Part shown: positions 3,660-29,371 of the stretch, piece by piece | How positions within the stretch are numbered: position 1 is the stretch's first letter | How the letters are laid out: every line of letters starts with the position of its first letter | Assembly (NCBI GenBank): GCA_026388255.1 | Contig: JAPLKC010000095.1 | Location: 1-53,438, forward strand | From: Pseudomonadota bacterium | Lineage (GTDB): Bacteria > Desulfobacterota > Syntrophorhabdia > Syntrophorhabdales > Syntrophorhabdaceae | DNA length: 53,438 nucleotides | Direction of reading: 5' to 3' | Program-made: the position numbers and the translations under genes | Notes under the pieces: model-generated | The model's input: the letters and a program-made list of their open reading frames with translations, nothing else | Told to the model about the DNA's origin: nothing | Databases searched by the model: none

Positions 3660-4211
3660 ATGAATATTGACGGATCGAGGATAGCTGAAAGAATTAAGAT
3701 GCTAAGGCAGGCCAAGTCTCTCACGCAGGAGGAGCTTGCTACAAGGGCAGGACTTACCAAGGGATTCATCTCCCAGGTTGAGAGGAATCTTACATCACTG
3801 TCCGTAGAGAGCCTGATAGGCATTCTTGATGCCCTTGATGAGAAACCGTCTGCTTTTTTTGATGGGGCAATAGATGAAAAAATTGTCTTTAAATTGAAAG
3901 ACAGAGTTGAGTTGGAATGGGAAGATGTAAAAAATTTTCAGATACTTGTTCCTGCTGCTCAGAACAGAATGATGGACCCTGCGCTGCTTGATCTTGATGC
4001 AGGTGAAAAAACACCTGAAGAAGAACCTCATGAAGGCGAGGAATTCGGTTTTGTACTGTCAGGCAGCATCGAGCTTGTGCTTGGCGGAAAACCTTACAAA
4101 TTAAAGAAAGGTGAATGTTTTTATTTTAAGGCAACAAGGAAACACTATATAGTAAATAGGCGAAATAACAGGGCATATATTCTATGGGTATCATCACCCC
4201 CTAATTTTTAG
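3660..4211 (+). CDS. XRE-family transcriptional regulator with C-terminal cupin domain
   Basis: 183 residues. Residues about 5-65 form an XRE helix-turn-helix (SLTQEELATRAGLTKGFISQ followed by VERN). Residues about 110-180 form a small cupin (HEGEEFGFVLSGSIELVLG, then KKGECFYFKATRKHYIVN). This is the architecture of PuuR-type and related metabolite-sensing repressors. The gene is divergent from the ThDP enzyme and lies just upstream of the pyruvoyl arginine decarboxylase/agmatinase run. A polyamine or related small molecule is therefore the most economical guess for the cupin ligand, but this is inference from family and position. The palindromes at 3557 and 3619 are its likely targets. An ATG start directly before the HTH agrees with family length. 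Confidence 0.9.
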   Translation: MNIDGSRIAERIKMLRQAKSLTQEELATRAGLTKGFISQVERNLTSLSVESLIGILDALDEKPSAFFDGAIDEKIVFKLKDRVELEWEDVKNFQILVPAAQNRMMDPALLDLDAGEKTPEEEPHEGEEFGFVLSGSIELVLGGKPYKLKKGECFYFKATRKHYIVNRRNNRAYILWVSSPPNF

Positions 4212-4328
4212 CGCCCTCGCGGGTAAAAAGGTATTTAGCAGGACTGAAAAGTAAAAACATTCTTAAGACTATGTATTTACAGGTTTTTACGGTTTGGAAT
4301 ATAATGCTTTAAATAGCATGAATATAAG

Positions 4329-4368
4329 GATTTCTTTGCCAAAGAAATCACCCACAAACGTGTTGGGT
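4329..4368 (+). promoter_or_regulatory. Two consecutive hairpins in the leader of the arginine decarboxylase operon
   Basis: GATTTCTTT-GCC-AAAGAAATC (4329-4349) is a perfect 9-bp stem with a 3-nt loop. It is followed at once by ACCCA...TGGGT (4350-4368), a 5-bp stem. Both sit 13-65 bases upstream of the GTG start at 4394. There is no U-tract, so a simple terminator is unlikely. A leader regulatory structure or an operator is possible. Function is unproven. Confidence 0.35.
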
Positions 4369-4393
4369 ATTTAAAAGTTTGGGAGGTGGTCAA

Positions 4394-4867
4394 GTGATTA
4401 TTAAAACACCCACGAAGTTTTTTCTTGTCAGCGGTTCATCTGAAGGATTCTCATTATTAAACGCATTCGATGGCGCCCTTCTGGACTCAGGCGTCGGAGA
4501 TACCAACCTCGTTAAGATGAGTAGTATCCTTCCTCCCGGCTGTGAAGAAATTAAACCACCACCAATTCCATTGCCTCAGGGAGCCCTTGTGCCTGTAGCC
4601 TACGCGTCTCTTAATAGTGACATTCCCGGAGAAACCATTTCTTCAGCAGTAGCAATAGGCATACCAAAGGATGAGAATCGTGCCGGCTTAATCATGGAAT
4701 ATTCGGCAAAGGCAGAGGAAAACATCGTGTTGGAACAGGTCAAGAAGATGGTTAAAAAGGGCATGGAGATGAGGAACAGGGAAATAAAAGAAATAATGGC
4801 TATTTCAGCTTCATATAAAATTGCTGCTATCGGCGCCGTGTTCGCCGGTGTAGTCCTGTGGGATTAG
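4394..4867 (+). CDS. Pyruvoyl-dependent arginine decarboxylase, first copy
   Basis: Decarboxylates arginine to agmatine using a pyruvoyl group made by self-cleavage. The protein is about 157 residues, typical of the PvlArgDC family. It has the processing motif [10 protein letters not shown], with cleavage expected between S43 and S44, and a conserved active-site-type glutamate in LIMEYS. The start is taken as GTG 4394: the reading frame is open from a TTG at 4379, but the Shine-Dalgarno GGGAGGTGG (4381-4389) would then lie inside the gene, and it is correctly spaced for 4394. The stop is followed 22 bases later by a second, clearly different copy, then agmatinase, so the three form an operon. 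The C-terminus ([14 protein letters not shown]) is hydrophobic, as in the family. Confidence 0.88.
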
Positions 4868-4889
4868 CATGGAGAGGAGGAATGCAAAA

Positions 4890-5435
4890 ATGACTCCAAA
4901 AAAGATTTTTTTTACGAAAGGGGTGGGCGTTCATAAAGATAAATTGTCATCCTTCGAGGTTGCCTTAAGAAATGCAGGCATTGAGAAATGTAATCTTGTG
5001 TATGTATCAAGTATATTTCCACCAGAGTGTAAGATTATTTCAAAGACTGCCGGTTTGAAGCTTCTCAGCGCCGGCGAGATTACTTATTGTGTAATGTCAC
5101 GAAATGAGACTTGTGAACCGAACCGTCTTATTTCTGCAGCAATCGGTGTTGCAAGACCAACGGATTACTCCCAATACGGTTATCTCTCCGAGCACCATGC
5201 TTTCGGTGAAAAAGCCATTGTCTCCGGGGAATACGCAGAAGATCTTGCGGCTACAATGCTTGCAACAACGCTTGATATTCCTTTTGACCCTAACCAGGCA
5301 TGGGATGAGCGGAAGCAGTCTTATACAGCAAGCGGCCACATATTCAAAACTAAAAATATCTGCCAGTCGGCTGAAGGCAATAAAGACGGTCTCTGGACTA
5401 CAGTATTGGCTACGGCAGTTTTTATTATAGATTGA
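4890..5435 (+). CDS. Pyruvoyl-dependent arginine decarboxylase, second copy
   Basis: 181 residues with the self-processing motif [10 protein letters not shown] (cleavage expected between S40 and S41) and the active-site segment SEHHAFGE, a hallmark of PvlArgDC. It is only distantly similar to the preceding copy, so this is an old duplication or two subfamilies, not a recent tandem copy. The start is ATG 4890. The frame is open from ATG 4869, but AGGAGG at 4875-4880 would then be coding, and it is well placed for 4890. Its stop lies 4 bases before the agmatinase ATG, so translational coupling is likely. The two copies may form a mixed oligomer or differ in substrate (arginine versus another basic amino acid). 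That is conjecture. Confidence 0.88.
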
Positions 5436-5439
5436 TACA

Positions 5440-6303
5440 ATGTCGCCAAGGCTTCCCTTCAGTTTCTGTGGGTTACCCAATGATGATAATGATTACGAGC
5501 AGGCATCTATCGTCATATTGCCGATTCCCTTCGATAAAACAAGCACATGGCAAAAAGGCGCCGACAAAGGCCCGGCAGCGATAATCGAGGCCTCTGAATA
5601 TCTCGAACTATACGATATAGAGACAGATAACGAGGTTTTCAGGAAGGGAATTTTTACTGCCAGGCCGATCCACTCGGCCTCTTCTTCCGCTTTGTTAAAA
5701 AAAACCGATTCAGTAGTCTCAAAATATCTTAAAGACAATAAATTTGTTGTAACCCTTGGAGGTGAACACTCTGTTTCTATCGGCGTTATCAAATCATATG
5801 CCGGGTGCTATAATGATCTGAGCATACTTCATCTTGATGCCCATGCCGACTCACGCGACTCATATGAGGGAACCCCTTACAGTCATGCCTGTGTTATCGC
5901 ACGTGTCCGGGAATTTACCGGAAACATTGTTTCTGTGGGGATACGCAGTATGGATGTCTCGGAACGCCCCGATATTGACAATAAGAAGACGTTTTTCGCA
6001 CATGATATACACGATTCTGACAAATGGATAAATAAAGTAGTTCCTTTGCTGACAGATAGCGTGTATATCACCATTGATCTTGACGTCTTCGATCCGGGTA
6101 TTATGCCGTCAACAGGGACCCCGGAACCGGGCGGTTTAGGCTGGTACCAGGTTATGAAACTCCTCTATGCTGTTTCTAAATCAAAACAGATAGTCGGGTT
6201 TGATGTTGTCGAGCTTTGTCCGTCAGATTCTAAAGCACCCGATTTTCTTGCAGCCAAATTAATCTACACACTTTTAAGCTATATTGATGTAAACAAGCAA
6301 TGA
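5440..6303 (+). CDS. speB: Agmatinase (agmatine ureohydrolase)
   Basis: Converts agmatine to putrescine and urea, directly downstream of the two arginine decarboxylases that would supply agmatine. The 287-residue ureohydrolase has all binuclear-manganese motifs: GGEHSVS (about 107-113), LHLDAHADSRD (about 130-140), ITIDLDVFDP (about 208-217) and GFDVVEL near the C-terminus. Length and motif spacing are those of SpeB-type enzymes. Arginase is less likely given the neighbours. The start ATG at 5440 lies 4 bases after the preceding stop. The gene is convergent with the solute-binding protein gene, with only 19 bases between stops. Confidence 0.93.
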   Translation: MSPRLPFSFCGLPNDDNDYEQASIVILPIPFDKTSTWQKGADKGPAAIIEASEYLELYDIETDNEVFRKGIFTARPIHSASSSALLKKTDSVVSKYLKDNKFVVTLGGEHSVSIGVIKSYAGCYNDLSILHLDAHADSRDSYEGTPYSHACVIARVREFTGNIVSVGIRSMDVSERPDIDNKKTFFAHDIHDSDKWINKVVPLLTDSVYITIDLDVFDPGIMPSTGTPEPGGLGWYQVMKLLYAVSKSKQIVGFDVVELCPSDSKAPDFLAAKLIYTLLSYIDVNKQ

Positions 6304-6322
6304 CTGCTGTGAACCCCTTAAA

Positions 6323-7120
6323 TTATTTCAGGTCTTGCAGCCAGTCCCCTTCCTTAAACCATTTTTCCATCATCATTTGAAGTGCACCGCTTCCTTTAAG
6401 ACTACCAATAACATTGTCAAGGAAGTTGACGAAAAGAGGATCGTTGGCCGGTATGGCAACGCCGATTGGTTCGAACGTAAGATTATTGGTGGCGACAATT
6501 CCCTTATCTTTGTGGCGTACTGTGGCTACCGAACCGGTTGCTCTGTCGGTTAAGATTGCTTTGACCTTGCCTTCCAGAAGAAGCTTCAATGCTTCATCCA
6601 TGTCTTTTGCTACTATCAGCTTTGCCTTGGATATGTTGTTCCTGACAATCATTTCACTTGTTGTTCCCTTTGGAGCAGCAATGGTAAAGTCAGGCTTGTT
6701 GATATCGTTTAAATTTTCTGCATTTAGGGCTGTTGCTTTTGTGGTCACAAGTGATTGACCCGAAATGAAGTAAGGGCCTACAAAGGCAACCTTGAGATTC
6801 CGTTCCGGTGTCATAGTCATAGCGGCGATTATTATGTCAATCTTACCGGCTTCGAGAGCTGATAAAAGGTCCGGGAAAGGGATTTCAACAAATTTTGGAA
6901 CTACTCCCATGCTGCTCGCTATGATCTTTCCCAAATCAATATCTAAACCCATCAGCATCCCGCTTTTTGATTTCGCACTGAAAGGCGGATATTCACCTGT
7001 GGTTCCGATGACAAGTTCACCTTTTTTTAGTATTTTATCAATTACCGGTCCCGCCTGGGCAACTGTTACTACAACAAGTAAAACAAGAATAACAGCTATG
7101 GTTGCAATGGCTTTTTTCAT
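6323..7120 (-). CDS. Polar amino-acid-type ABC transporter solute-binding protein
   Basis: 265 residues. An export signal (KK followed by a long hydrophobic run, likely cut after AQA near residue 23) precedes a family-3 periplasmic binding domain: KGELVIGTTGEYPPFS, GLDIDLGKIIASSMG, IDIIIAAMTMTPER, and a closing WFKEGDW. The family binds polar or basic amino acids. The RNLKVAFVGPY segment fits, but no ligand can be assigned. No permease or ATPase gene adjoins it, so it must partner with a transporter encoded elsewhere or act as a sensor input. Arginine would fit the neighbouring pathway, but that is only suggestive. A Shine-Dalgarno GGAG lies upstream of the ATG at 7120. Confidence 0.85.
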   Translation of the reverse strand: MKKAIATIAVILVLLVVVTVAQAGPVIDKILKKGELVIGTTGEYPPFSAKSKSGMLMGLDIDLGKIIASSMGVVPKFVEIPFPDLLSALEAGKIDIIIAAMTMTPERNLKVAFVGPYFISGQSLVTTKATALNAENLNDINKPDFTIAAPKGTTSEMIVRNNISKAKLIVAKDMDEALKLLLEGKVKAILTDRATGSVATVRHKDKGIVATNNLTFEPIGVAIPANDPLFVNFLDNVIGSLKGSGALQMMMEKWFKEGDWLQDLK

Positions 7121-7420
7121 TTCCTCTTTCTCCTTTTAGACATTTATTATGCCGCGAAATATCGTGTGAAATAACTCTATAAGGATATCACCTGCCTTGT
7201 CAAGAAAAATGCTGGACCCTTTCCCGGAAATTCCTTGACACATTGTTTCTAAATATCTACAATAAATAGCGACATCAAAGGGGACTTAAAGGCAGTGAAT
7301 AGTAGATAGTGAATAGCTAAAAAGGCAGAAAATATGAAAAGGCAGTGAATGGTAAAATAGGTTTTTGACTAACGACTATTCACTAACGACTATTCACTAA
7401 AATTAAAACAGGGGGTAATT
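7121..7420. other. Intergenic region with repeated AGTGAATAG/CTATTCACT units
   Basis: No gene is visible. The right half holds a set of inverted and tandem repeats (separate entry). The region separates the binding-protein gene from the ParB-like gene and must contain promoters for both divergent genes. No clear -35/-10 pair stood out. Confidence 0.5.
7294..7398. repeat. Inverted/tandem short repeats (AGTGAATAG family)
   Basis: AGTGAATAG occurs at 7294-7302 and 7308-7316, with a partial copy at 7344-7350. Its complement lies in two tandem copies of the 14-mer AACGACTATTCACT at 7371-7384 and 7385-7398. The two ends can pair into a long imperfect hairpin ending 22 bases before the ParB-like start. 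Such units are common as dispersed non-coding repeats. A role in regulating the next gene is possible but unproven. Confidence 0.6.
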
Positions 7421-8350
7421 ATGGCAACGAAGAAGACGAGTGCAAATCCTGAATTTCTGTACATTCCCGTAGACAAGATTGTAGTGTTGGAACAGGTGAG
7501 ATCGAATATTGATATTGAAACAGATTCATTCAAATCGCTCATGCAGTCGATCAAAGACAAGGGCATCTTAGAACCGCTTATCGTAACCGGACAGGATGAC
7601 GGGACATATCTACTCATCTGCGGGGAGAGGCGTCTTGTGGCAGCACGGCAGTTAGGGTTTGAATCCGTACCAATAAGAGTTATTGAAGCAGGTAAAGAAT
7701 TAGGGGACACCATAGCCCTTCAACTGACAGAGAATCTTCAGAGAGAAGACCTCAACCCTATTGATCAGGCGAAAGGAATACTCTCATTTATTCAGGCAAA
7801 ACATCCCGATAAAGGGTATGATGTTGACGGGGTGATGAGTGAACTGGTGATGTACAATAGGAGGCCCGAAGACCTGCCGGAAGAAATTGCTATCACTGTG
7901 ATAGCAATTTCTGAAATCTCCGGAAAGTCAATAATGACGCTGCATCGCACGATATCACTTTTAAAACTTTCTTCAGAAATTCAGGTAGAAATCCGGTCAG
8001 GAAATCTCCCTGTTTCTCAGGGTTATCTCTTTGCCGCAAACCTTGATTGTCCTGATCTTAAAAATATATTCGATACCGTCATAAAGACACCGATAACCAA
8101 TGCCACATTAGAAAGGATGCTCACAGCATACAAAGAAGTCAAACCTGACCCTGTTGATACGAAGCCAAAATCCGTTAAGAAACAAGTTAAAGGCCTGGTA
8201 TCCATTAAGACGGATTTTGAGAAAGGCCTTGGAACCTATGTACGGGAAGACGTTGAAAAATATCTCTATGAACTGCAGGTTTTCTGTGATTTTATACAAC
8301 AGCAGATGCCCAAAATACCATACGGTAAGAAAAGACCGCCACAAGTGTAA
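7421..8350 (+). CDS. ParB/RepB/Spo0J-family protein, orphan
   Basis: 309 residues. The N-terminal ParB CTPase/nuclease-like domain (about 14-110) has the GERRLVAARQLG box and the TENLQREDLNPIDQA box. A KorB-like helix-turn-helix region follows (about 160-205: SGKSIMTLHRTISLLKLS and then EIQVEIRSGNLPVSQGYL). The C-terminus is basic and probably dimerises. There is no parA neighbour and no parS-like site, so a role in chromosome segregation is doubtful. Orphan ParB-like proteins often act as regulators or belong to old mobile elements. Between the two domains the gene carries a perfect 31-bp palindrome that adds a short extra segment (EEIAITVIAISEIS). The start ATG 7421 follows a G-rich Shine-Dalgarno. 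Confidence 0.85.
   Translation: MATKKTSANPEFLYIPVDKIVVLEQVRSNIDIETDSFKSLMQSIKDKGILEPLIVTGQDDGTYLLICGERRLVAARQLGFESVPIRVIEAGKELGDTIALQLTENLQREDLNPIDQAKGILSFIQAKHPDKGYDVDGVMSELVMYNRRPEDLPEEIAITVIAISEISGKSIMTLHRTISLLKLSSEIQVEIRSGNLPVSQGYLFAANLDCPDLKNIFDTVIKTPITNATLERMLTAYKEVKPDPVDTKPKSVKKQVKGLVSIKTDFEKGLGTYVREDVEKYLYELQVFCDFIQQQMPKIPYGKKRPPQV
7882..7912. repeat. Perfect 31-bp palindrome inside the parB-like gene
   Basis: Arms AGAAATTGCTATCAC and its exact complement flank a single central T. The sequence stays in frame and encodes a hydrophobic stretch between the ParB and HTH domains. A perfect 15-bp-arm palindrome is far longer than expected by chance within coding sequence. It could be a binding site, for example for the encoded protein, or the scar of a palindromic insertion. 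Confidence 0.8.
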
Positions 8351-18867: not shown

Positions 18868-20823
18868 CTACAAAGTGTCCTTTTTGTACTCAATCCTGAG
18901 ATTCGTAAAGTAATCCTTCAATCGTACAAGATGCCCTAAGGCCTTGTCTGTGTTCCCATCCTTGACCGAATTTTCAATATCTGCGCACACCCCGCTCAAA
19001 ACAGCAAAGCAATAAATACTGAAACTCCCCTTCAATTTGTGCGCAATTGCTTTCGTGGCATCAAAATCATTATTGTGGAGTGACTCCTGCAATGCCGATA
19101 TATTGATGTCCATCTTCTTTAGGAATGATGGTATGAGTTCCTCAAGATCAGGGTCTATTATGGCAAGGTAATCGAGCTTTTCTTCAGGATGGGAACTCTG
19201 ATTTTCCGACACCTGGGGAGGCAATCCGGTAAAAAAATCAAGAGGTGTATTATTTGCTTCGGCTGATTGCCGCACGATTCTGAGAAGATCCTCTCGTTTA
19301 GCAGGTTTTATAAGGTAGCCTGTAAAACCAGCCTCTGCACATCTCTGCTTTGCTGCGTCATCGTCATGACCTGAAAGGGCTATGACCGGAACGGGCCTTA
19401 TTTTTTCCGATTCTTCCCATTCACGGATGGCACGGACGGCTTCAATGCCGTTCATAACTGGCATCTCCACATCCATAAAAATAACATCATATATTGATTC
19501 ACGATGTTTTTCATAGGCGTCCCTGCCGTTTTCCGCACAATCTAAGATAAACTTCGGATAAGTAAGGTGTTTTTCCAGTATCTTCAGGTTAAAAGATTCG
19601 TCATCGACAAGGAGGATTTTCTGGTCGTGGATATACTCCAGGCCAGATAACAATTTTTCTTTTTGCTGTTCCCTACTGTCAAGCGTTTTATCATCACGGA
19701 CATCTACCTTAGCGGCAAGAGGCAACATGATTGTTATCGTTGTCCCTTCATGTTCGGAGGTCTCCATCGCAATTGAGCCGCCTTGCGTCTCTGCGATGAG
19801 CTTTGCCGAGTAGGTTCCCAGGCCCGTCCCCCCGCTTTTACCTGCTGTTGCATATTTCTCAAAAAATGTTGAACGGATTTTTTCCGGTACGACGCCACTG
19901 TTGTGGATACTTATATGCCCCTCCTGACCGGCTGATGCGAGGGCGACGGAGACGGCTTCTCTCTGTGGCGATGCTTCAATGGCGTTTTTTATGAGATTTG
20001 AAAACATGGAATAGCAAAGGAGCTCTTCTCCCTGTAAAAAAAACCTTTCATACTCCTGTATCGGATAACCTTGAAGAGTTATTTCAAGACTTATACTTTT
20101 TGATGCTGCAATTCCTCTGTTCTCTGAAAAAATCTTACTAATTATCTTTACAACATCCACAGAGGCAGGCTCAAATTGATACATTCCTCTCTCCATCTTG
20201 AAGAGGTCAAGTGAAAGGTTGATCATCCGCAGCATCCTGTATCCTGATTCTTCGATAGCCCGAAGATGTTCTGCACTTTCACCGGCAGCCAGTCTTTCCT
20301 GAAGAATAATTTGCGGCAGACTTATGATGCTGTTCAGGGGTGCTTTAAGGTCATGGCGGACAATATTTTCAACGTCCTCACGGAGGCGTGCTGCTTCACG
20401 CAATTCTTCATTCTGCCTTGCTAATATTTCCCTTGCTTCTTTAAGGGCAAGATGCGTTCTAACCCTTGCTTTTACCAGAGGGGGACTGACGGGCTTGGTG
20501 ATATAATCTACTCCCCCAAGTTCAAAACCTTTGAGTTCATCCTCCACTTCACTCTTGGCTGTCACAAAGATAATCGGTATATCTCTGGTTTTAATATCCG
20601 CTTTCAGCTTTGCACAGGCTTCATATCCGTCCATAACGGGCATCATAACGTCAAGGAGAATCAGATCGGGAACAGGATCTTTTGCGGCGAGACGCAGGGC
20701 CTTTTCCCCGTTTGTTGCCACAATTGTTGTATACTCGTCTTTCAGCACCTCAACGAGTATCTGGATGTTTGCAGGTGTATCATCCACAACAAGGATTGTC
20801 TTTCGTTCCTTCACGTCAATCAT
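18868..20823 (-). CDS. Hybrid phosphorelay protein: receiver - histidine kinase - receiver - HPt
   Basis: 651 soluble residues. Receiver 1 spans about 8-125 (VVDDTPAN; phosphoacceptor D58 in LILLDVMMP). A coiled linker follows, then the dimerisation domain with H157 (VRHDLKAPLNS) and an HATPase (about 270-375; GGTGLGTYSAKLIAE). Receiver 2 is at about 405-525 (DVIFMDVEMPVMNG). The C-terminal HPt domain has its histidine in AIAHKLKGSFS. With all four phosphotransfer modules it can run an internal relay and hand phosphate on. It has no membrane segment, so it must be driven through its N-terminal receiver by another kinase. It lies 9 bases after the HD-GYP gene, so it is probably co-transcribed. 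Confidence 0.93.
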   Translation of the reverse strand: MIDVKERKTILVVDDTPANIQILVEVLKDEYTTIVATNGEKALRLAAKDPVPDLILLDVMMPVMDGYEACAKLKADIKTRDIPIIFVTAKSEVEDELKGFELGGVDYITKPVSPPLVKARVRTHLALKEAREILARQNEELREAARLREDVENIVRHDLKAPLNSIISLPQIILQERLAAGESAEHLRAIEESGYRMLRMINLSLDLFKMERGMYQFEPASVDVVKIISKIFSENRGIAASKSISLEITLQGYPIQEYERFFLQGEELLCYSMFSNLIKNAIEASPQREAVSVALASAGQEGHISIHNSGVVPEKIRSTFFEKYATAGKSGGTGLGTYSAKLIAETQGGSIAMETSEHEGTTITIMLPLAAKVDVRDDKTLDSREQQKEKLLSGLEYIHDQKILLVDDESFNLKILEKHLTYPKFILDCAENGRDAYEKHRESIYDVIFMDVEMPVMNGIEAVRAIREWEESEKIRPVPVIALSGHDDDAAKQRCAEAGFTGYLIKPAKREDLLRIVRQSAEANNTPLDFFTGLPPQVSENQSSHPEEKLDYLAIIDPDLEELIPSFLKKMDINISALQESLHNNDFDATKAIAHKLKGSFSIYCFAVLSGVCADIENSVKDGNTDKALGHLVRLKDYFTNLRIEYKKDTL

Positions 20824-20832
20824 GAGTTATTC

Positions 20833-21999
20833 TTACACCTTTTTTTCTTCCTCAATGGCAATCTTTAAAAACTGGGCCTTTTCTTCAATATCTTTGTCCG
20901 TATCCTTGAAGTGTTCCGCTACAACCCGGAATTCTTCGGCATTTTCCACAAAAGCATCCGTTACATCAGGGTCAAAATGGATGCCCCAGCCTTCTTTTAT
21001 GATTTCAACAGCCTTTTCATGGGGCATGGGTTCCTTATAAACACGTCTGCAAATAAGGGCATCATAGACGTCTGCTATCGCCATCAGTCTGGCTGAAATA
21101 GGAATCTCGTCACCCCCGATGCCCTCCGGATAACCGCTGCAATCCCACTTTTCCTGATGATAAAGGGCTATTTCACTGGCAAGGCCAAGGAAAGAGTTCG
21201 GCTCATCGAGGAGCTTCTCCGATTCTTCTATTGCATGACGGCCCAGGACGGTGTGTGTCTTCATAATCTCAAACTCCTCGGCGGTAAAGCGGCCCGGCTT
21301 GAGGAGAATCCGGTCCGGTATGCCTACCTTTCCAATATCATGCAAAGGTGCTGATTTATAAAGGAGTTCAATATTCTCGTCTGTCAGGAAATGGCTGAAA
21401 CGTGGATGTTTCTGGAGTTTTTTTGCCAGTAGCTTCACATAATTCTGTGTACGGCGGATGTGATTGCCCGTATCGCTATCACGGGTTTCAGCCAAAGATG
21501 CCATAGCCACAATTGTCATATCCTGTGCGGTTGTTAATTCCTTCATTCGGCGTTTTATTTCCTGTTCCAGGTACTCATTTTTATCTTTGAGAAAATCCCG
21601 GGCAGTTTTAAGGGTAAGATGCGTTTTTACTCGAGCCATGACAATGGGAGGGCTGATAGGCTTTGTGATGTAATCAACCGCCCCTAGTTCGAAGCCTCTC
21701 TGCTCGTCCTCCACTTCAGCCTTAGCTGTAAGGAATATTACAGGTATATCAGCCGTTTCAGGGTTCTCTTTCAGCTTCGAAATAACCTCATATCCATCCA
21801 TCTCCGGCATCATGATGTCGAGGAGGATCAGATCAGGCATAGGCTTGGCTGCTGCAACCTGGAGCGCCCGTGTACCGCGGTTTGCAACCTTTACTGTGTA
21901 TAAATCTTTCAAAAGACTGCTTACAAGGGCAAGATTCGCCGGTGTATCATCCACGACCAGAACGACCGGTTTTTGTTCAAAGCTCACAGCATCAGCCAT
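20833..21999 (-). CDS. Response regulator with HD-GYP output (RpfG-like c-di-GMP phosphodiesterase)
   Basis: 388 residues: receiver at about 10-130 (VVDDTPAN; acceptor in LILLDIMMPEMDG), coiled linker, and HD-GYP domain at about 155-350. The latter has GNHIRRTQNYV, the metal-binding HDIGKVGIPD, KTHTVLGRHAI, YHQEKWDCSGYPEGIGG and the MAIADVYDAL segment. Only one mismatch to the usual pattern stands out: HQEKWDCSGYP in place of HHERWDGSGYP. The predicted activity is phosphorylation-controlled hydrolysis of cyclic di-GMP (or cGAMP). Its receiver is closely similar to receiver 1 of the downstream hybrid protein, suggesting duplication within the cluster. It is the only enzyme output of the island. 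Confidence 0.93.
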   Translation of the reverse strand: MADAVSFEQKPVVLVVDDTPANLALVSSLLKDLYTVKVANRGTRALQVAAAKPMPDLILLDIMMPEMDGYEVISKLKENPETADIPVIFLTAKAEVEDEQRGFELGAVDYITKPISPPIVMARVKTHLTLKTARDFLKDKNEYLEQEIKRRMKELTTAQDMTIVAMASLAETRDSDTGNHIRRTQNYVKLLAKKLQKHPRFSHFLTDENIELLYKSAPLHDIGKVGIPDRILLKPGRFTAEEFEIMKTHTVLGRHAIEESEKLLDEPNSFLGLASEIALYHQEKWDCSGYPEGIGGDEIPISARLMAIADVYDALICRRVYKEPMPHEKAVEIIKEGWGIHFDPDVTDAFVENAEEFRVVAEHFKDTDKDIEEKAQFLKIAIEEEKKV

Positions 22000-22052: not shown

Positions 22053-24797
22053 TCATGTATGAAATTCCTCAATTGCCCTCCTGCATATCCTTTCCGCCTC
22101 CTCAAAGTCATATCCTTCTATGGCCCTGGAAACAGCATCAAGTTCTGCGGCAGGGATGACAGCAGACAAATCCTCCCGGTTTTCCTCGAAGAGTTCTCCT
22201 GCTTCGGAGTCAGAGTTCTCAAGGAGGGTGATTAATTCGTCAAGTACTGCCTTCCCCTTCGCGGGATCACCGGAAGAGGGAGGGGTAATAATCTCTGCAG
22301 CAACCCCGGGGGCAGCACTCAAGGCGCTGACCATTCGTGAGAGGGCTTCATCGAGGGCATTTAGTTTCGCATCCAGCACTTCTGAAGATTCATTGTTCCG
22401 GATAGCGGCCTCAACAACAGCAGCCTTCTCCTGGACATCTGATGCGCCTATATTGCCGGAGACACCCTTGGTGGTATGGGCCAACCGCTCCGCTGTCCCT
22501 CGATCATCAACCTTAAGACTCTGGCGTATCCGGGCCAGGGTCTGCCCCTGGTCTTCAATGAATTTTTTCAGCAAGCTCATGTATAACTTTTTCTTACCCA
22601 TGACCCGCTTTAGGCCTAGGCCCGTGTCGAGACCGGGAATATTGGGCAGGTCGTCCTGCTGTGCAGGTTTGAGTTCTTCCTTTTCTGTCTTTTCTGCATG
22701 CATCCCGGCGACTTCCTGGCGCTGGCTGGCCTGGCGGGGTTTTACCCACTTTAGCAATTTGCCGAAGAGTTCATCGGGGTCAATAGGCTTACCGATGTGG
22801 TCATTCATACCGGCTTTGTAACATTTATCAATGTCATCGGCCATGACATTTGCCGTCATGGCGATAACGGGTAGATATTTGAAACATTCCTGCTTGCGTA
22901 TTTCCTGTGTCGCTGTAATACCGTCCATGACGGGCATCTGCATATCCATGAGCACAATATCATATGTATGCTTATCCAGCATCTCCAATGATTTCTGTCC
23001 GTCTTGGGCAATGTTGACCTCGAATCCTGCATCGGTAAGAAGCTCACAGGCAAGTTGCTGGTTGAATTCGTTATCTTCTACGAGGAGGATGGATACACCC
23101 TTCATGGCAGCGAGATTTTCCATCAATGGAGCCGCTTTTTGTTCTTCCCGGGACATCTCAGCCGGTTCTCCACCCAGCACATGAACGAGGGTGTCGAGCA
23201 TCGTTGAAGCGCTTACCGGTTTAATAAGTACGTCCTCAAGCCCTGCCATGGCCGCCTCTCTCAATACCTCCTCGCGGCCGTAAGCCGTGACCATGACCAT
23301 ATGCGGCAGGGGACTCAAAGGCAGATCCCGGATAGCCCTGGCTGTTTCAATTCCGTCCATTCCCGGCATTCGCCAATCGAGCAATACAACCTCGTAAGGT
23401 TTGCCCGATTTGGCAGCAGAACTTATCTCCTTCAAGGCTTCTTTGCCGGAGGCCACATCATTCACTATAAAGGTCATGCCGGTAAGCATGTCAGAGAGAA
23501 CAACGCGACTCATCTGGTTGTCATCAACCACCAGTACCCGGCGACCCCGCAGGTCAGGTTCCGGCAGTAACTTCCTTGCTTTGGCAATGCCCTTGCCTAA
23601 TCGTGCCGTAAACCAGAAAGTGCTGCCTTTGCCATATTCACTTTCCACGCCCACATCGCCGCCCATAAGGCTGGCCAGTTTTTTGGAGATGGCCAATCCC
23701 AGCCCGGTACCGCCGTACTTTCGCGATGTGGATGTATCCGCCTGCTGGAAGGATTGGAACAGCTTGCCTATCTGTTCCTCTGTCAGTCCGATGCCCGTAT
23801 CCTCGACGGCAAAACGAAAAAGTCCGTCACTGTCTGTTTCTTCAACAACTTCCACAGAGATAACCACTTCTCCCTGCTCGGTGAATTTAACGGCATTATT
23901 GGCATAATTAACCAGGATTTGACCGAGCCGCAGAGGATCTCCCACAAGATATTTGGGTGTTCCTTTCTCGATACGGAACACAAGCTCCAATCCTTTGGTG
24001 GCAGTCTTTTCGGAAATAAGGTTGGAAACATTATCCATAACCTTCTCCAGTTCAAATTCCGTATGCTCTACTGATAGCTTTCCTGCCTCTATCTTGGAAA
24101 AATCAAGAATATCGTTGATTATGCCGAGCAGATGTTGTCCTGACTGTTGAATCTTCTGTATGTAGTCGCGCTGCTTTCGATTCATATCCGTTTTCATTGC
24201 CAGACTGGAAAACCCGATTATAGCGTTCATGGGCGTACGGATTTCATGGCTCATATTGGCCAGAAAGTCAGCCTTGGCTTTGGCGGCAGAGTCAGCTTCC
24301 TGTCTGGCTTCATCAAGATCTTCTAAGATGTTTAACATCGCTTTTCGTGCTTTGTCCATCTCCGCAATCTGATTCTGGAGATCCTCCTCGGATTCCTTTC
24401 GTTCCCGAAAGGAGGTTTGCAACTGCTTGGTCATGCTGTTGAAGGCCTCGGAAAATTCACCCATAAAGCTGACTCTTTGAGCGAAATCTCCTGTGGCAAT
24501 CTGTTTGGTGACCCAGGTCAAGGTTCTCAGGCTGGCGTGGAGACTCTTGAGCGACTGGCCGATGATCAATCCTACCTTGGGCGGGTCGATATCGATCTCA
24601 CCCCTCCCCAGATGATAGGCAAAGGCGGTCATTTCATTATATTCAGCAATGAATTTGTTGATATAATCGACGGCCTGCCGGATTTCATTGTCCGGATATT
24701 CTTTCGGAAGTTCGACAGGTACGGGCTTCTTGCCTTTGAGGATGGAATAAAAGACTTCCGTGATCTTGTCGATATCCTTCTCGTTGATCTCGATCAT
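22053..24797 (-). CDS. Soluble hybrid histidine kinase with HAMP-like region, two receivers and HPt
   Basis: 914 residues. A helical N-terminus contains a HAMP-like segment (about 90-135; [20 protein letters not shown]) although no membrane helix precedes it. A coiled coil, the HisKA H-box ([21 protein letters not shown], about 180-200) and HATPase ([13 protein letters not shown] ... [13 protein letters not shown], to about 405) follow. Then receiver 1 (about 420-540), receiver 2 (about 568-690; [14 protein letters not shown]) and an HPt domain (histidine in [17 protein letters not shown]). This is BarA/ArcB-like without the membrane sensor. The upstream V4R protein (10 bases away) and the PAS/PocR sensor are its likely signal inputs. 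Confidence 0.92.
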
Positions 24798-24806
24798 TTT
24801 ATGTCC

Positions 24807-25334
24807 TTAAGCTGTTGGTTTGATATCAAACCGGCATACCCGGTCACCTGAGCACCAGCAATCGACCTCTTTTACAGCGAAATTTTTTCCTGAAAATCCA
24901 AAAAGCAGGCCGCTGATGAATCCTTCATCATAGGTGCAGATTGTTTCGTCGGAGACTGGAAGCCCTGAGCAATCGAGGTCTTCTGCAACAGTCAAGGTAA
25001 ATTCCATTTTATCTAAATCTGCTTTTTCCACTCTCAGGATACCGATCTTTAAAGCAGCCAGCAGATCCTGCAGTTCTTTCACAAAAGCGCCGAAATCGGT
25101 CTTTTGAGTAATCAAGTTCTTGAAGAGTTCCCGGCCTGCGAGTTCACCGGCCTTGTAATAAATTCGCTCGGCCGTTGCCGTGTCAAACTCCTGGATGATG
25201 ACATCTCTCAGCGTAAACTGCATGAGACGATAGACCGCCACATCCATGTTTGCTCCGAGGTTGGGCCTCCCTTCGCCGATATTTCCGATCATGCTCCAAT
25301 CAAACAACGAAGTGTCTCTTTCCTCTTTGAACAT
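24807..25334 (-). CDS. V4R (4-vinyl reductase-type) domain sensory protein
   Basis: 175 residues. The C-terminal half carries the V4R signature: YDEGFISGLLFGFSGKNFAVKE followed by DCWCSGDRVCRF, with three cysteines that could bind a metal or an iron-sulfur centre. V4R domains are small-molecule-binding modules found in hydrocarbon- and aromatic-sensing regulators (PoxR/XylR/DmpR type) and in bacteriochlorophyll enzymes. Here the domain is free-standing. It lies between the membrane PAS/PocR sensor and the hybrid kinase, so it may present an aromatic or similar ligand to either. The ligand is inferred from family only. Confidence 0.82.
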   Translation of the reverse strand: MFKEERDTSLFDWSMIGNIGEGRPNLGANMDVAVYRLMQFTLRDVIIQEFDTATAERIYYKAGELAGRELFKNLITQKTDFGAFVKELQDLLAALKIGILRVEKADLDKMEFTLTVAEDLDCSGLPVSDETICTYDEGFISGLLFGFSGKNFAVKEVDCWCSGDRVCRFDIKPTA

Positions 25335-25368
25335 GGGTTCCTCCTTGGATTCTCGGTTGGTAGCTCAT

Positions 25369-28300
25369 TTACTCAACAATCTTATACTTTTTCTCCTTGC
25401 CCGTTTGCTCCAGGATCGTATTGATTTCCGCCTTGAGCTGAATCATCTTTTCCTCGCGGTTGATGGTCAGGCGACTGAACCGCTCCAGGTCTTCCATGCG
25501 TTCCTTCAGTTCTTTCTCTGCCTGCTTGAGCGAAGTGATATCTACCAGCCATCCCAGGATGCTCGGCTGGTCTTCGTACGTCGTCGGCAAAAAGGTCAAC
25601 ATAATATCGACGGGGGATCCGTCCGCGCCGTTCATCCTGATCTCATAATTGCTGACGATACCATCGCGTTGCAGGGCTTCAATTATCGGCACCCGATCAT
25701 CCGGGTTGAGATATATTTTTGTAATGGGATCGCCAATCTTGATGTTCAGTGTGCTTAAGAATTGCGGATTGGCAAACTTCAGGAATCCACTCGTTGATAT
25801 GCCGACACAGATGGGGCTGCTGTCCATCATACCCTGCAGCCTTTCCCGCTCTTTGTGAATAGCGTCTTCCATCGCCTTACGCTCCGTGATATCGCGAAAC
25901 GAGATTACCGTCCCGACCACCTGGCCGTCTTTCCAGACCGGAGTTGTGGAGTATTCCACGGGCACCGCCGTGCCGCCCTTGCGCCAGAGCACCTCATTGT
26001 CCACAGTGCGGGTCTTGCCGTCCTGGGAGGACAGGTACATGGGGCACTGCAACCGCGGGAATGCCGAGCCGTTGGGATAGGCGTAGTGGACCTCGGCATG
26101 CATTAATTTGCCGAGCAGTTCTTCTTCTGTATAGCCAAGGATGGAGCTCACCGCGGGATTGACGAATGTAACCCTGCCCCCAGCATCCAAACCGAATATC
26201 CCCTCACTCACGGAGCTGAGAATTAAGCGGCCTCGCTCCTCGCTGGTATGCAGTTCGTCGGTCCGCTCCTGAACCAGAAGCTCCAGGCGGTCTTTATAGC
26301 GCTCAATTTCTGCACGGGCCGTGTTGGCGTCCTCAGCCAGACTCATGGCAACGGCGCGTTCCCGTTTAGATTCCTCGACCCGCTTGGCTATGGAGATCTC
26401 CGCCTGTCGGGCCTGGTTGCGCTCCACGGCCATGGCAGCCACTATTTGGGCCATTTCCACAAGGAAACCCAATATAGCTTCGAGTTTGTCCTCACTCACT
26501 ATGGGCACTTCCTTGATGGCCTCCAGATATGGCTCTATATCCAGGCCACACTCTTCGGCCTGGCGGCGAAAAAATTCCATATCCGGAAGACCGGTGAAAA
26601 ACTGCCCCACGAAGGCGTTGGCGATGTGCTTCCCATCGATGATGATAGGCGAGGCGGCGTCAGTCAGACCGTTTTTGCAGGGGTAAACGGAAAACGGCTT
26701 GCCTTCGTTAAGATTCAGGGCAAGCCCGGTGTCGCTTTCTATGCAGCGGGCGCAGGTCTTTTCGTTGACGCGGTGAAAGTCCGTGCAGGCCCTCTGCCAG
26801 CGTGCCGCGGCGAGGACTTCGCCTTTCAGGTCGATGATGGCGGAGGCTATTCCTACCGACTCACAAAAATCCACTAGCAGGCGCTTGAACTGATCCACGC
26901 TGAGTATTTCGGCCAGGGTGTTTGGGGCAATCTCCGGCTGCTCTGGCTCCATGACGGTCGATTCTGCCTTGGCCAATTCTTCATCCAACCCACCCATTAG
27001 CTCGTGTTCCTGATAAAATGCCTTCTCGCCTGCCTTTACGGCCAAGGCATTCACCTGCTCCTTGATCTCGATGATTCGTTCTTCCCGGCCTAAGGAAAGG
27101 CGGTTGAACCGTTCTATCTCCAAAACCTTGGCCTTGAGTTCCTCCTGGGCCTGTTCTGCCCGGGCGGCCGCCTCCTCGGCAACCTCCTTTTCCACCTTCA
27201 GGCCTTCAGCCCGTTTGCGTTCAGTGATGTCGTGAAACGAAACGACCGCCGCGATTACCCGGCCGTCTTTCAAGACCGGTGTTGTTGAATATTCCACGGG
27301 CACCGGCGTGCCGTCCTTGCGCCAGAACACCTCATTGTCCACTGTGCGGACCTTGCCGTCCTGGGAAGTCAGGCACGTGGAGCATTGCAACCACGGGAAT
27401 TCCGAGCCATCCGGATGGGCGTAGTGAACCCTTTCATGCAGCAGTTCGCCAAGCATCTCTTCTTCTGTATAACCAAGGATGGCGCTCACCGCGGGGTTGG
27501 CGAATGTCACCAAGCCATTGGTATCCATACCGAATATCCCCTCGCTCACGGAACTGAGAATCAACCGGCTCCGCTCTTCAGCCTGAGCGAGCAGTTCCTT
27601 CTGCCCCTCGAGTTCATCTGTTCGAGCCCGCAGTTGACTCTCTGAATCAGCAAGGGCCACTGCCTGGTATTGACTCTCTTCGAGTAGGCTCTTCATACTG
27701 AAATTCGATTGCGTAAATACATAAATCACCGCAATAAAGCTTAGTGACAATAAAATGGTAAGCAGGGTAAGAATAATACCGAATGACCGGTACATGCTGA
27801 TCTGTCCTGTTGGCCAGAGTAGGACCACAGAAATGCCCTCATAAAGTGTGGCAGCTTGTGCTGATAGATATTGCCCTCCCTTAAAAGTCACTTCCGCCTC
27901 GGCCTTGAGTTGTTTTTGAAAAACAGGTTCGAATGGTCCCGGACCGTATTGTTTTGAAAGGATAATTTTTTGTTTCTGCTCGTTATCCAGGGGCCATAGA
28001 GTTTTCAGACGTGCTTCCGGCTGCGAAGATATAAAGATGATGCCGTTTTGGTCCACCAGGAACCAAACATACTGCTTGAGCTTTATCTCTATGTCTTCGA
28101 GTTCCTTCTTTATTACCACAACTCCGACGATCTGACCTTCCTTATCCTTGACGGAAGCGCTTGCGAAAAATCCGCGTATCCCCGTTACCGTACCGACGGC
28201 AAAATGCCGGCCAACGCCGCCTTTTATCGCCTGCTGAAAATAAGGCCGAAATGTATAGTTCTGCCCTACAAAACTGTCCTTCGCGTTCCGGTTGGAGGAT

Positions 28301-28659
28301 GCCAGCGTTAATCCGTCATGATTGATAAGATAACAGGCGGCTGCATCCAAAGACTTGTGATATCGATCCAATATGTTGTTTATTTTCTCGATGTTCGCAG
28401 GGGTATTGGCCTGCAAAACAGGAAGTGTTAAGGGGGATCCGGCAACGGCCACTGCCGCGCTTTCGATTCTCTTTAATTCATTGGTCAAGTTAAGTGATAT
28501 AATGAGATTCGCATCTTCCACATCATGCGTTACTGTGCGCGTTGCAATTTCTACTAGGTGGCCGGTAAAAATCCAGCCTGCAGCCGTCACAATGAAGATT
28601 GCGCACAAGGCTGTAATAGCAAACCATTTTTTGGTAAAATGAAGTGTTGGCATGATCAA
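25369..28659 (-). CDS. Membrane sensor: extracytoplasmic cache-like domain, PAS, PocR, two PAS, no kinase domain
   Basis: 1096 residues. TM1 (about 12-32) and TM2 (about 290-312) bound a periplasmic double-cache-like domain (YHKSLDAAACYLINHDGL, ASVKDKEGQIVGVVVIKKE). Then come PAS 1 (about 365-485), a coiled segment, a PocR ligand-binding domain (about 590-755, with the Cys cluster CTDFHRVNEKTCARCIESD and YPCKNG), a coiled coil, PAS 2 (about 805-930), PAS 3 (about 935-1055) and a coiled tail. PAS 1 and PAS 2 are near duplicates over about 120 residues. No HisKA, HATPase, GGDEF or methyl-accepting region is present, so it must signal through a partner, most simply the soluble hybrid kinase two genes on. 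It is first in the operon-like run. Confidence 0.88.
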   Translation of the reverse strand: MIMPTLHFTKKWFAITALCAIFIVTAAGWIFTGHLVEIATRTVTHDVEDANLIISLNLTNELKRIESAAVAVAGSPLTLPVLQANTPANIEKINNILDRYHKSLDAAACYLINHDGLTLASSNRNAKDSFVGQNYTFRPYFQQAIKGGVGRHFAVGTVTGIRGFFASASVKDKEGQIVGVVVIKKELEDIEIKLKQYVWFLVDQNGIIFISSQPEARLKTLWPLDNEQKQKIILSKQYGPGPFEPVFQKQLKAEAEVTFKGGQYLSAQAATLYEGISVVLLWPTGQISMYRSFGIILTLLTILLSLSFIAVIYVFTQSNFSMKSLLEESQYQAVALADSESQLRARTDELEGQKELLAQAEERSRLILSSVSEGIFGMDTNGLVTFANPAVSAILGYTEEEMLGELLHERVHYAHPDGSEFPWLQCSTCLTSQDGKVRTVDNEVFWRKDGTPVPVEYSTTPVLKDGRVIAAVVSFHDITERKRAEGLKVEKEVAEEAAARAEQAQEELKAKVLEIERFNRLSLGREERIIEIKEQVNALAVKAGEKAFYQEHELMGGLDEELAKAESTVMEPEQPEIAPNTLAEILSVDQFKRLLVDFCESVGIASAIIDLKGEVLAAARWQRACTDFHRVNEKTCARCIESDTGLALNLNEGKPFSVYPCKNGLTDAASPIIIDGKHIANAFVGQFFTGLPDMEFFRRQAEECGLDIEPYLEAIKEVPIVSEDKLEAILGFLVEMAQIVAAMAVERNQARQAEISIAKRVEESKRERAVAMSLAEDANTARAEIERYKDRLELLVQERTDELHTSEERGRLILSSVSEGIFGLDAGGRVTFVNPAVSSILGYTEEELLGKLMHAEVHYAYPNGSAFPRLQCPMYLSSQDGKTRTVDNEVLWRKGGTAVPVEYSTTPVWKDGQVVGTVISFRDITERKAMEDAIHKERERLQGMMDSSPICVGISTSGFLKFANPQFLSTLNIKIGDPITKIYLNPDDRVPIIEALQRDGIVSNYEIRMNGADGSPVDIMLTFLPTTYEDQPSILGWLVDITSLKQAEKELKERMEDLERFSRLTINREEKMIQLKAEINTILEQTGKEKKYKIVE

Positions 28660-29294: not shown

Positions 29295-29371
29295 TGGTGG
29301 GCCGTGGAGGATTCGAACCTCCGACCAATTGATTAAGAGTCAACTGCTCTACCGGACTGAGCTAACGGCCC
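29295..29371 (-). tRNA. tRNA-Lys (anticodon CTT)
   Basis: Complete cloverleaf on the minus strand: acceptor GGGCCGT/ACGGCCC, D arm with AGCTCAGTCCGGTAGAGC, anticodon stem GTTGA/TCAAT around loop CTCTTAA (anticodon CTT), T arm with GGTTCGAATCC, discriminator A and an encoded CCA (29295-29297). Its 3' half is duplicated at 18005-18047. The duplicated segment reconstitutes the tRNA exactly, so the gene stays functional after the presumed integration. Confidence 0.97.

Follow-up and report, generated by a model that had tools for sequence, protein, structure and literature searches.

Within a 53,438-nucleotide contig of a Syntrophorhabdaceae bacterium (JAPLKC010000095.1, assembly GCA_026388255.1; the whole stretch is called the window below), a membrane sensor devoid of any kinase domain, a small free V4R protein and a soluble hybrid histidine kinase are encoded one after the other on the minus strand. 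We propose that this locus specifies a split receptor built from separate chains, in which the V4R protein relays or gates the signal between the C-terminal tail of the sensor and a receiver of two HAMP-like repeats (di-HAMP) at the head of the kinase. We assign this interpretation a probability of about 0.6. It draws on the gene order and domain content of the locus, the pairing of V4R with di-HAMP proteins of exchangeable output, the conservation of the sensor tail, natural gene fusions, sequence co-variation and the predicted fold of V4R. The three genes (sensor, 28659-25369; V4R, 25334-24807; hybrid kinase, 24797-22053) are followed by those for a REC-HD protein (21999-20833) and a second hybrid kinase (20823-18868). 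Because the gaps between the five are short (34, 9, 53 and 9 nucleotides), we treat them as one unit, 28659-18868. A previous, sequence-only reading had described a 1096-residue PAS/PocR membrane sensor without transmitter next to a free V4R protein; both open reading frames are there, and Pfam agrees.

V4R is paired with a di-HAMP head of exchangeable output

Relatives of the window V4R were collected by scanning one genome per species. Of 146 stretches encoding such relatives, the best 80 loci (54-90% identity) were kept, from records named as Deltaproteobacteria, Nitrospirae, Planctomycetota, Lentisphaerae, Hydrogenedentes, Acidobacteriota, Spirochaetes, Clostridium and others. An unbiased sample of 297 genomes was drawn evenly from the phylum. 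All locus and genome counts and all p-values given below include related genomes and are not phylogenetically independent, which weakens our case to some extent and makes the p-values only indicative.

The window hybrid kinase (22053-24797, 914 residues) carries HisKA, HATPase_c, two REC and Hpt domains, with its phospho-acceptor histidine in the motif SHEIRTP at residue 183. The sequence-only reading took it to lack a sensor. The protein has indeed no membrane helix and is soluble; its first 138 residues (24384-24797), on the other hand, form a conserved input module, with the core LxxLTWxTxxIAxGDFxxxVxFMGxFSxAFNxM. AlphaFold models this head as four helices (6-20, 38-64, 78-101 and 114-137) joined by short connectors (predicted local distance difference test score, pLDDT, 91.6), and since this arrangement and the repeated GD motif fit such a structure, we read it as an N-terminal helix with two HAMP-like repeats in tandem behind it. 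The Pfam HAMP model (PF00672) scores 24.8 bits in the window kinase against a cut-off of 25, and 34.2 in the relative of locus L011; the best Foldseek matches are Aer2 poly-HAMP structures, weak and non-significant (E 0.06).

In 77 of the 80 loci, across many phyla, the gene after V4R starts with this module, typically about 20 nucleotides away. What lies behind the head changes from locus to locus: a kinase in 34, a GGDEF domain in 18, a class III cyclase in 12, SpoIIE in 9, nothing in 3, with one protein cut off and one of another kind. Examples are the V4R/di-HAMP kinase of the cultured Desulfamplus magnetovallimortis (L023) and the V4R/di-HAMP-GGDEF pair of L074. In the genome sample, V4R occurs in 30 of the 297 genomes and the head in 30, both being present in 24 against about 3 expected (Fisher 2e-24), and wherever both are found (24/24) they are neighbours. 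Sequence distances of the two partners co-vary (r 0.80, a value reached by none of 2000 permutations; r 0.70 within the closer group). Exceptions to the pairing are fusions in genomes G043 and G116, a V4R in G235 whose neighbor is a PAS-GGDEF protein lacking the head, and V4R genes with no evident partner in L008 and G229. In L036, the reading frame that apparently fuses V4R to an upstream part looks over-long and was scored as a free V4R with partner.

The constant part of the system is thus V4R plus the di-HAMP head. The split receptor-kinase complex suggested by the sequence-only reading survives insofar as the genes do belong together; the near-invariant partner of V4R, however, is the di-HAMP module and not the hybrid kinase. 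The co-occurrence expected for all three genes is borne out for V4R and di-HAMP, while the pair is commoner without the sensor than with it.

The tail of the kinase-less sensors

The sensor (25369-28659) has 1096 residues from a TTG start; an ATG two codons on would give 1094. It is laid out as membrane helix, dCache, membrane helix, PAS, a first tail copy, PocR, PAS, a PAS-like domain and the C-terminal tail. By Pfam, dCache_1 covers residues 41-244 (27928-28539, E 8.3e-15), PAS domains cover 365-480 and 814-928, and the ligand-binding PocR domain covers 584-743 (26431-26910, E 1.8e-46); HisKA, HATPase_c, GGDEF, MCP or any other output domain is not matched. Membrane helices predicted from hydropathy, at about residues 12-34 and 291-317, flank the dCache domain, which would place it in the periplasm. 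The sequence-only reading had recognized the PAS and PocR domains and the want of a transmitter, and had overlooked the dCache domain and the tail.

This tail (25372-25527; profile E 1.2e-26), which we propose as a docking element, spans about 50 residues with the consensus DLERFxRLTIxREERMIxLKEEINxLLExxGxxxKYKIV; for the window sensor the motif is LERFxRLTIxREEKMIxLKxEINxxxxxxGxxxKYKIV. A kinase-less protein bearing it is found at V4R in 24 of the 80 loci, directly upstream in 22 and fused in two. It forms the C-terminal end of the free sensors, and in the fusions V4R follows it. The front ends of these sensors vary (dCache, SBP_bac_3, GAF, PocR, a kinase-type sensor domain, TPR) and the tail stays constant. 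Two tail-sensors stand in tandem in L006 and L016. A second, internal copy is present in the window sensor (27013-27153, E 7.6e-15) and in the PocR-bearing sensors of L003, L005 and L016; lying directly before PocR, the window copy looks as if two sensors had merged. The natural one-chain sensor-tail-V4R proteins of L014 and L041, recurring in the sister genomes L201 (of L014) and L200 (of L041), are direct fusion evidence for the connection between sensor and V4R.

Tail-sensors keep to particular outputs. They go with a kinase in 19 loci, with a di-HAMP protein standing alone in 3 and with SpoIIE in 1, and there are none among the 18 GGDEF or the 12 cyclase loci; set against one another, 19 of 34 histidine kinase loci and 1 of 39 loci with another effector have one (Fisher 3e-7, relatedness ignored). 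Of 18 tail loci, 13 have a REC-HD-GYP gene next to the di-HAMP gene, against 2 of 42 others. These associations bear on a different view of the locus, in which V4R together with the di-HAMP kinase makes up a cytoplasmic sensor of two parts that needs nothing else, and the membrane sensor, co-regulated and separate, acts on the kinase or the response regulators without touching V4R. Such an arrangement would explain why most loci have the complete pair and no sensor, and why tail-sensors are also found next to ordinary kinases where V4R is missing. It sits poorly with the sensor-tail-V4R fusions, with the position of the tail-sensor immediately before V4R and not before the kinase, with its strong tie to kinase output, and with the appearance of an HNOB gene in the place of V4R beside tail genes (below). 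We regard it as unlikely, although the most serious of the competing views.

A search of the 297 genomes with the tail profile found 27 positives. Every one of the strongest matches (E <1e-20) adjoins or is fused to V4R. The HNOB family, a relative of V4R, is encoded in only 2 of 29 tail-bearing genomes, both times as a neighbor of the tail gene. The order in L186 is a dCache-PAS-PAS-tail sensor, HNOB and a hybrid kinase, an identical arrangement in which H-NOX fills the V4R slot. Kinase-less tail-sensors adjoin HNOB genes and kinases in L186 (4915-10035) and in L190 (4798-10522), and the latter additionally encodes a XylR_N-V4R-PAS protein with the same tail. Tail proteins also occur near other kinases and non-kinase genes in L187 (3772-7104), L188 and L192; in L187 the tail comes after a GAF domain behind a HisKA_3 kinase, so it also terminates kinase-bearing chains.

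One protein speaks for a shorter path. In L199 (genome G116, 3731-8188), a GAF-PAS-tail-PocR stretch is fused straight to HisKA-REC-REC-Hpt, so that part of the split system is joined here in a single chain. One could imagine from it that the tail docks directly on the kinase or its di-HAMP coil, V4R being a mere accessory that, for instance, carries a cofactor or ligand, acts as a chaperone or supplies the ligand as an enzyme. Tail-sensors that adjoin kinases in the absence of V4R fit this idea, as do the roles that V4R-fold proteins have in gene clusters for bacteriochlorophyll and bilins (PMC10151467). An accessory would hardly be expected to pair and co-vary with di-HAMP proteins of four unrelated outputs, or to be placed right behind the tail by fusion, and we think direct docking improbable. 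The L199 protein also supports a connection from sensor to hybrid kinase.

The V4R protein and its possible cue

The window V4R (24807-25334, 175 residues) scores 50.7 bits against Pfam PF02830, for which the cut-off is 31. Searched as a profile against solved structures, it gave no match at E 0.001; MJ1460, MopR, CapR and PoxR emerge at E up to 10. The fold was looked at in a model of the fusion protein, computed from V4R rows alone (pLDDT 76, below 50 in the linker) and used for the V4R fold only; the model gives no tail-V4R interface. Its V4R part matches MopR, PoxR, DmpR, MJ1460 and Bet3, and H-NOX less closely. HNOB (PF07700) matches neither the window V4R nor any protein of its genome, G000.

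All five cysteines of the protein are invariant in 48 sequences, and there is no histidine, so that a histidine-ligated heme was rejected. C133, E156, C159 and C167 take the alignment positions of the MopR Zn ligands, with identical 23/3/8 spacing, and together with the invariant C161 form a predicted Zn/Cys site (24834-24938). C122 and C161 (about 24969-24971 and 24852-24854, minus strand) are further invariant cysteines outside the MopR ligand set. In MopR itself, Zn is held by three cysteines and one glutamate, and a His106/Trp134 dyad anchors phenol (PMC10715001).

The likeness to MopR recalls the proposal of the sequence-only reading that the complex might respond to aromatic compounds, PocR and V4R binding hydrocarbon-type ligands and gating the kinase. 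The V4R model is closest to the phenol sensor domains of MopR, PoxR and DmpR, and PocR domains are predicted to bind simple hydrocarbon derivatives, according to the title of a paper cited in PMC5847659. However, the phenol dyad is missing from the window V4R, since the protein contains no histidine and has Phe112 at the Trp134 position; nor were aromatic catabolism genes seen beside the unit, in an annotation that did not span the whole window. An aromatic ligand is therefore a very improbable cue.

A redox-active site offers a closer parallel. Heme-free H-NOX of Vibrio cholerae has a C149/Q171/C174/C182 site with C177 nearby, which forms disulfides on oxidation; the oxidised protein inhibits the kinase HnoK in trans, and HnoK feeds a cyclic di-GMP (c-di-GMP) phosphodiesterase (PMC7108781). 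The C133-E156-C159-C167 spacing of V4R is nearly the same, and C161 sits between the ligands as C177 does. In MsvR, C206, C232 and C240 are redox-active (PMC3729527), and their 26/8 spacing recurs in V4R. On these parallels we lean towards a redox or thiol switch as the cue, at perhaps even odds with a small hydrophobic ligand.

A second, distant free V4R of 149 residues is encoded in the same genome (contig 100, 12519-12776; locus L002 1240-2608), directly before a 293-residue soluble AtoS-like kinase that has only a coiled coil in front and no sensor domain. By BLAST, the two genes adjoin each other in 26 of 26 testable family loci. A free V4R next to a sensorless kinase is thus a repeated layout.

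A model for the proposed split receptor

In the split receptor that we favor, the membrane sensor would read a periplasmic cue through dCache and cytoplasmic cues through its PAS and PocR domains, and would end in a two-helix tail. The free V4R protein would take up the sensor signal, by docking the tail or modulating it, and would add a cue of its own through the Zn/Cys site, be it oxidant or thiol state or a small hydrophobic ligand. It would then act on the N-terminal helix and di-HAMP coil of the soluble output protein, here the hybrid kinase, and switch it. Phosphate would pass from REC to Hpt and on to the neighboring REC-HD-GYP protein, lowering c-di-GMP. The contacts between chains, like the direction of control, are what we infer from the arrangement of genes and domains.

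Several findings weigh against this picture. Adjacency is a sign of functional linkage, not of contact. Counting the loci with room upstream, about 47 have the V4R/di-HAMP pair and no sensor, and V4R does not need a sensor, given that the pair more often occurs without one. Nor is the tail exclusive to V4R: 18 of the 27 tail-bearing genomes lack this V4R, mostly with weaker tails that often stand near ordinary kinases. Both this separation of tail-sensors, in the wider sense, from their partners and the kinase fused in the L199 homologue weaken the exclusivity implied by the sequence-only reading. The di-HAMP reading of the head depends on a confident single-chain model and on HAMP scores around the cut-off, and the Zn/Cys site is predicted by analogy. 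Finally, V4R could have an enzymatic role, or could serve the output protein as a chaperone.

The split complex suggested by the sequence-only reading is partly supported and needs a wider frame, in which the window unit is one version of a V4R/di-HAMP module whose inputs and outputs can be interchanged. More tentatively, with the odds somewhat short of even, V4R/HNOB-fold proteins might serve as general diffusible couplers, for which the di-HAMP head would be the socket on unrelated outputs and the tail the counterpart on kinase-less sensors, several sensors converging on one output. The tandem tail-sensors of L006 and L016 would then be shared inputs.

Relation to known systems

The closest analogy is with stand-alone H-NOX and HnoK of Vibrio, Shewanella and Caulobacter. 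There, too, a free protein of the V4R/HNOB fold is encoded beside the histidine kinase that it controls, has an oxidation-responsive Zn/Cys site of nearly equal spacing, and belongs to a pathway that ends in a c-di-GMP phosphodiesterase (PMC7108781, PMC12329717). In contrast to H-NOX, the window V4R has no heme ligand histidine, V4R proteins of this type pair with four output types, and the unit adds a kinase-less tail-sensor and a di-HAMP kinase head. The phenol sensors MopR, DmpR and PoxR (XylR_N-V4R) share the fold and the C/E/C/C Zn site with identical spacing; unlike them, the window V4R is without the phenol dyad and is free rather than fused to an AAA+ regulator. MsvR of methanogens, besides its three redox-active cysteines, is the best NCBIfam match (equivalog NF053755); the score of 57.6 bits is far under the family cut-off of 220, and the window protein has no DNA-binding domain.

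In outline, the unit resembles the chemoreceptor-CheW-CheA pathway, with a kinase-less transmembrane receptor, a soluble coupling protein and a soluble kinase. However, no MCP signalling domain, CheW or CheA was matched by Pfam in the seven window proteins scanned, and here the coupler is of the V4R fold and the outputs are exchangeable. The tandem soluble HAMP repeats of Aer2 resemble the kinase head in the weak match given above; the HAMP-like repeats described here differ in heading kinases, cyclases and phosphatases at the N-terminus. The unit works like H-NOX/HnoK combined with a kinase-less receptor of the chemotaxis type, yet fails the defining features of each of these families.

Most bacterial sensors are seen as carrying input and output in one chain, or as following the layout of chemotaxis. 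In the present system the part that appears constant is a small free protein, with sensors and outputs swapping around it, across many phyla. The open-access literature yielded no account of the V4R/di-HAMP pair, in a search that left subscription papers aside and is no proof of novelty; the module is apparently an undescribed way to build receptors by combining separate parts that can be exchanged. A likely partner would thereby be at hand for many "orphan" PAS/Cache proteins that lack an output domain, and a function is offered for the free V4R proteins, few of which have one assigned. The tail of about 50 residues and the 138-residue head might also provide a ready-made plug and socket for sensor building.

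Neighboring genes and genomic setting

The REC-HD-GYP response regulator (20833-21999; Pfam Response_reg and HD_5) has the motifs HDIGK at residue 220 and HQEKWDCSGYP at 281 (HQEKWDxxGYP in general form) and is likely a c-di-GMP phosphodiesterase, as judged from these motifs. The second soluble hybrid kinase (18868-20823; 651 residues, REC-HisKA-HATPase-REC-Hpt) closes the unit. Among 39 genomes of the family, the set of tail-sensor, V4R and di-HAMP protein is present only in the window genome and in G034, and a horizontal arrival of the five-gene unit is possible. Promoter and terminator patterns showed no excess over shuffled sequences. Upstream, the unit is preceded by a tRNA-Lys gene (29295-29371), and GC content is 50-51% across 21-27 kb of the window against about 43% in the surroundings.

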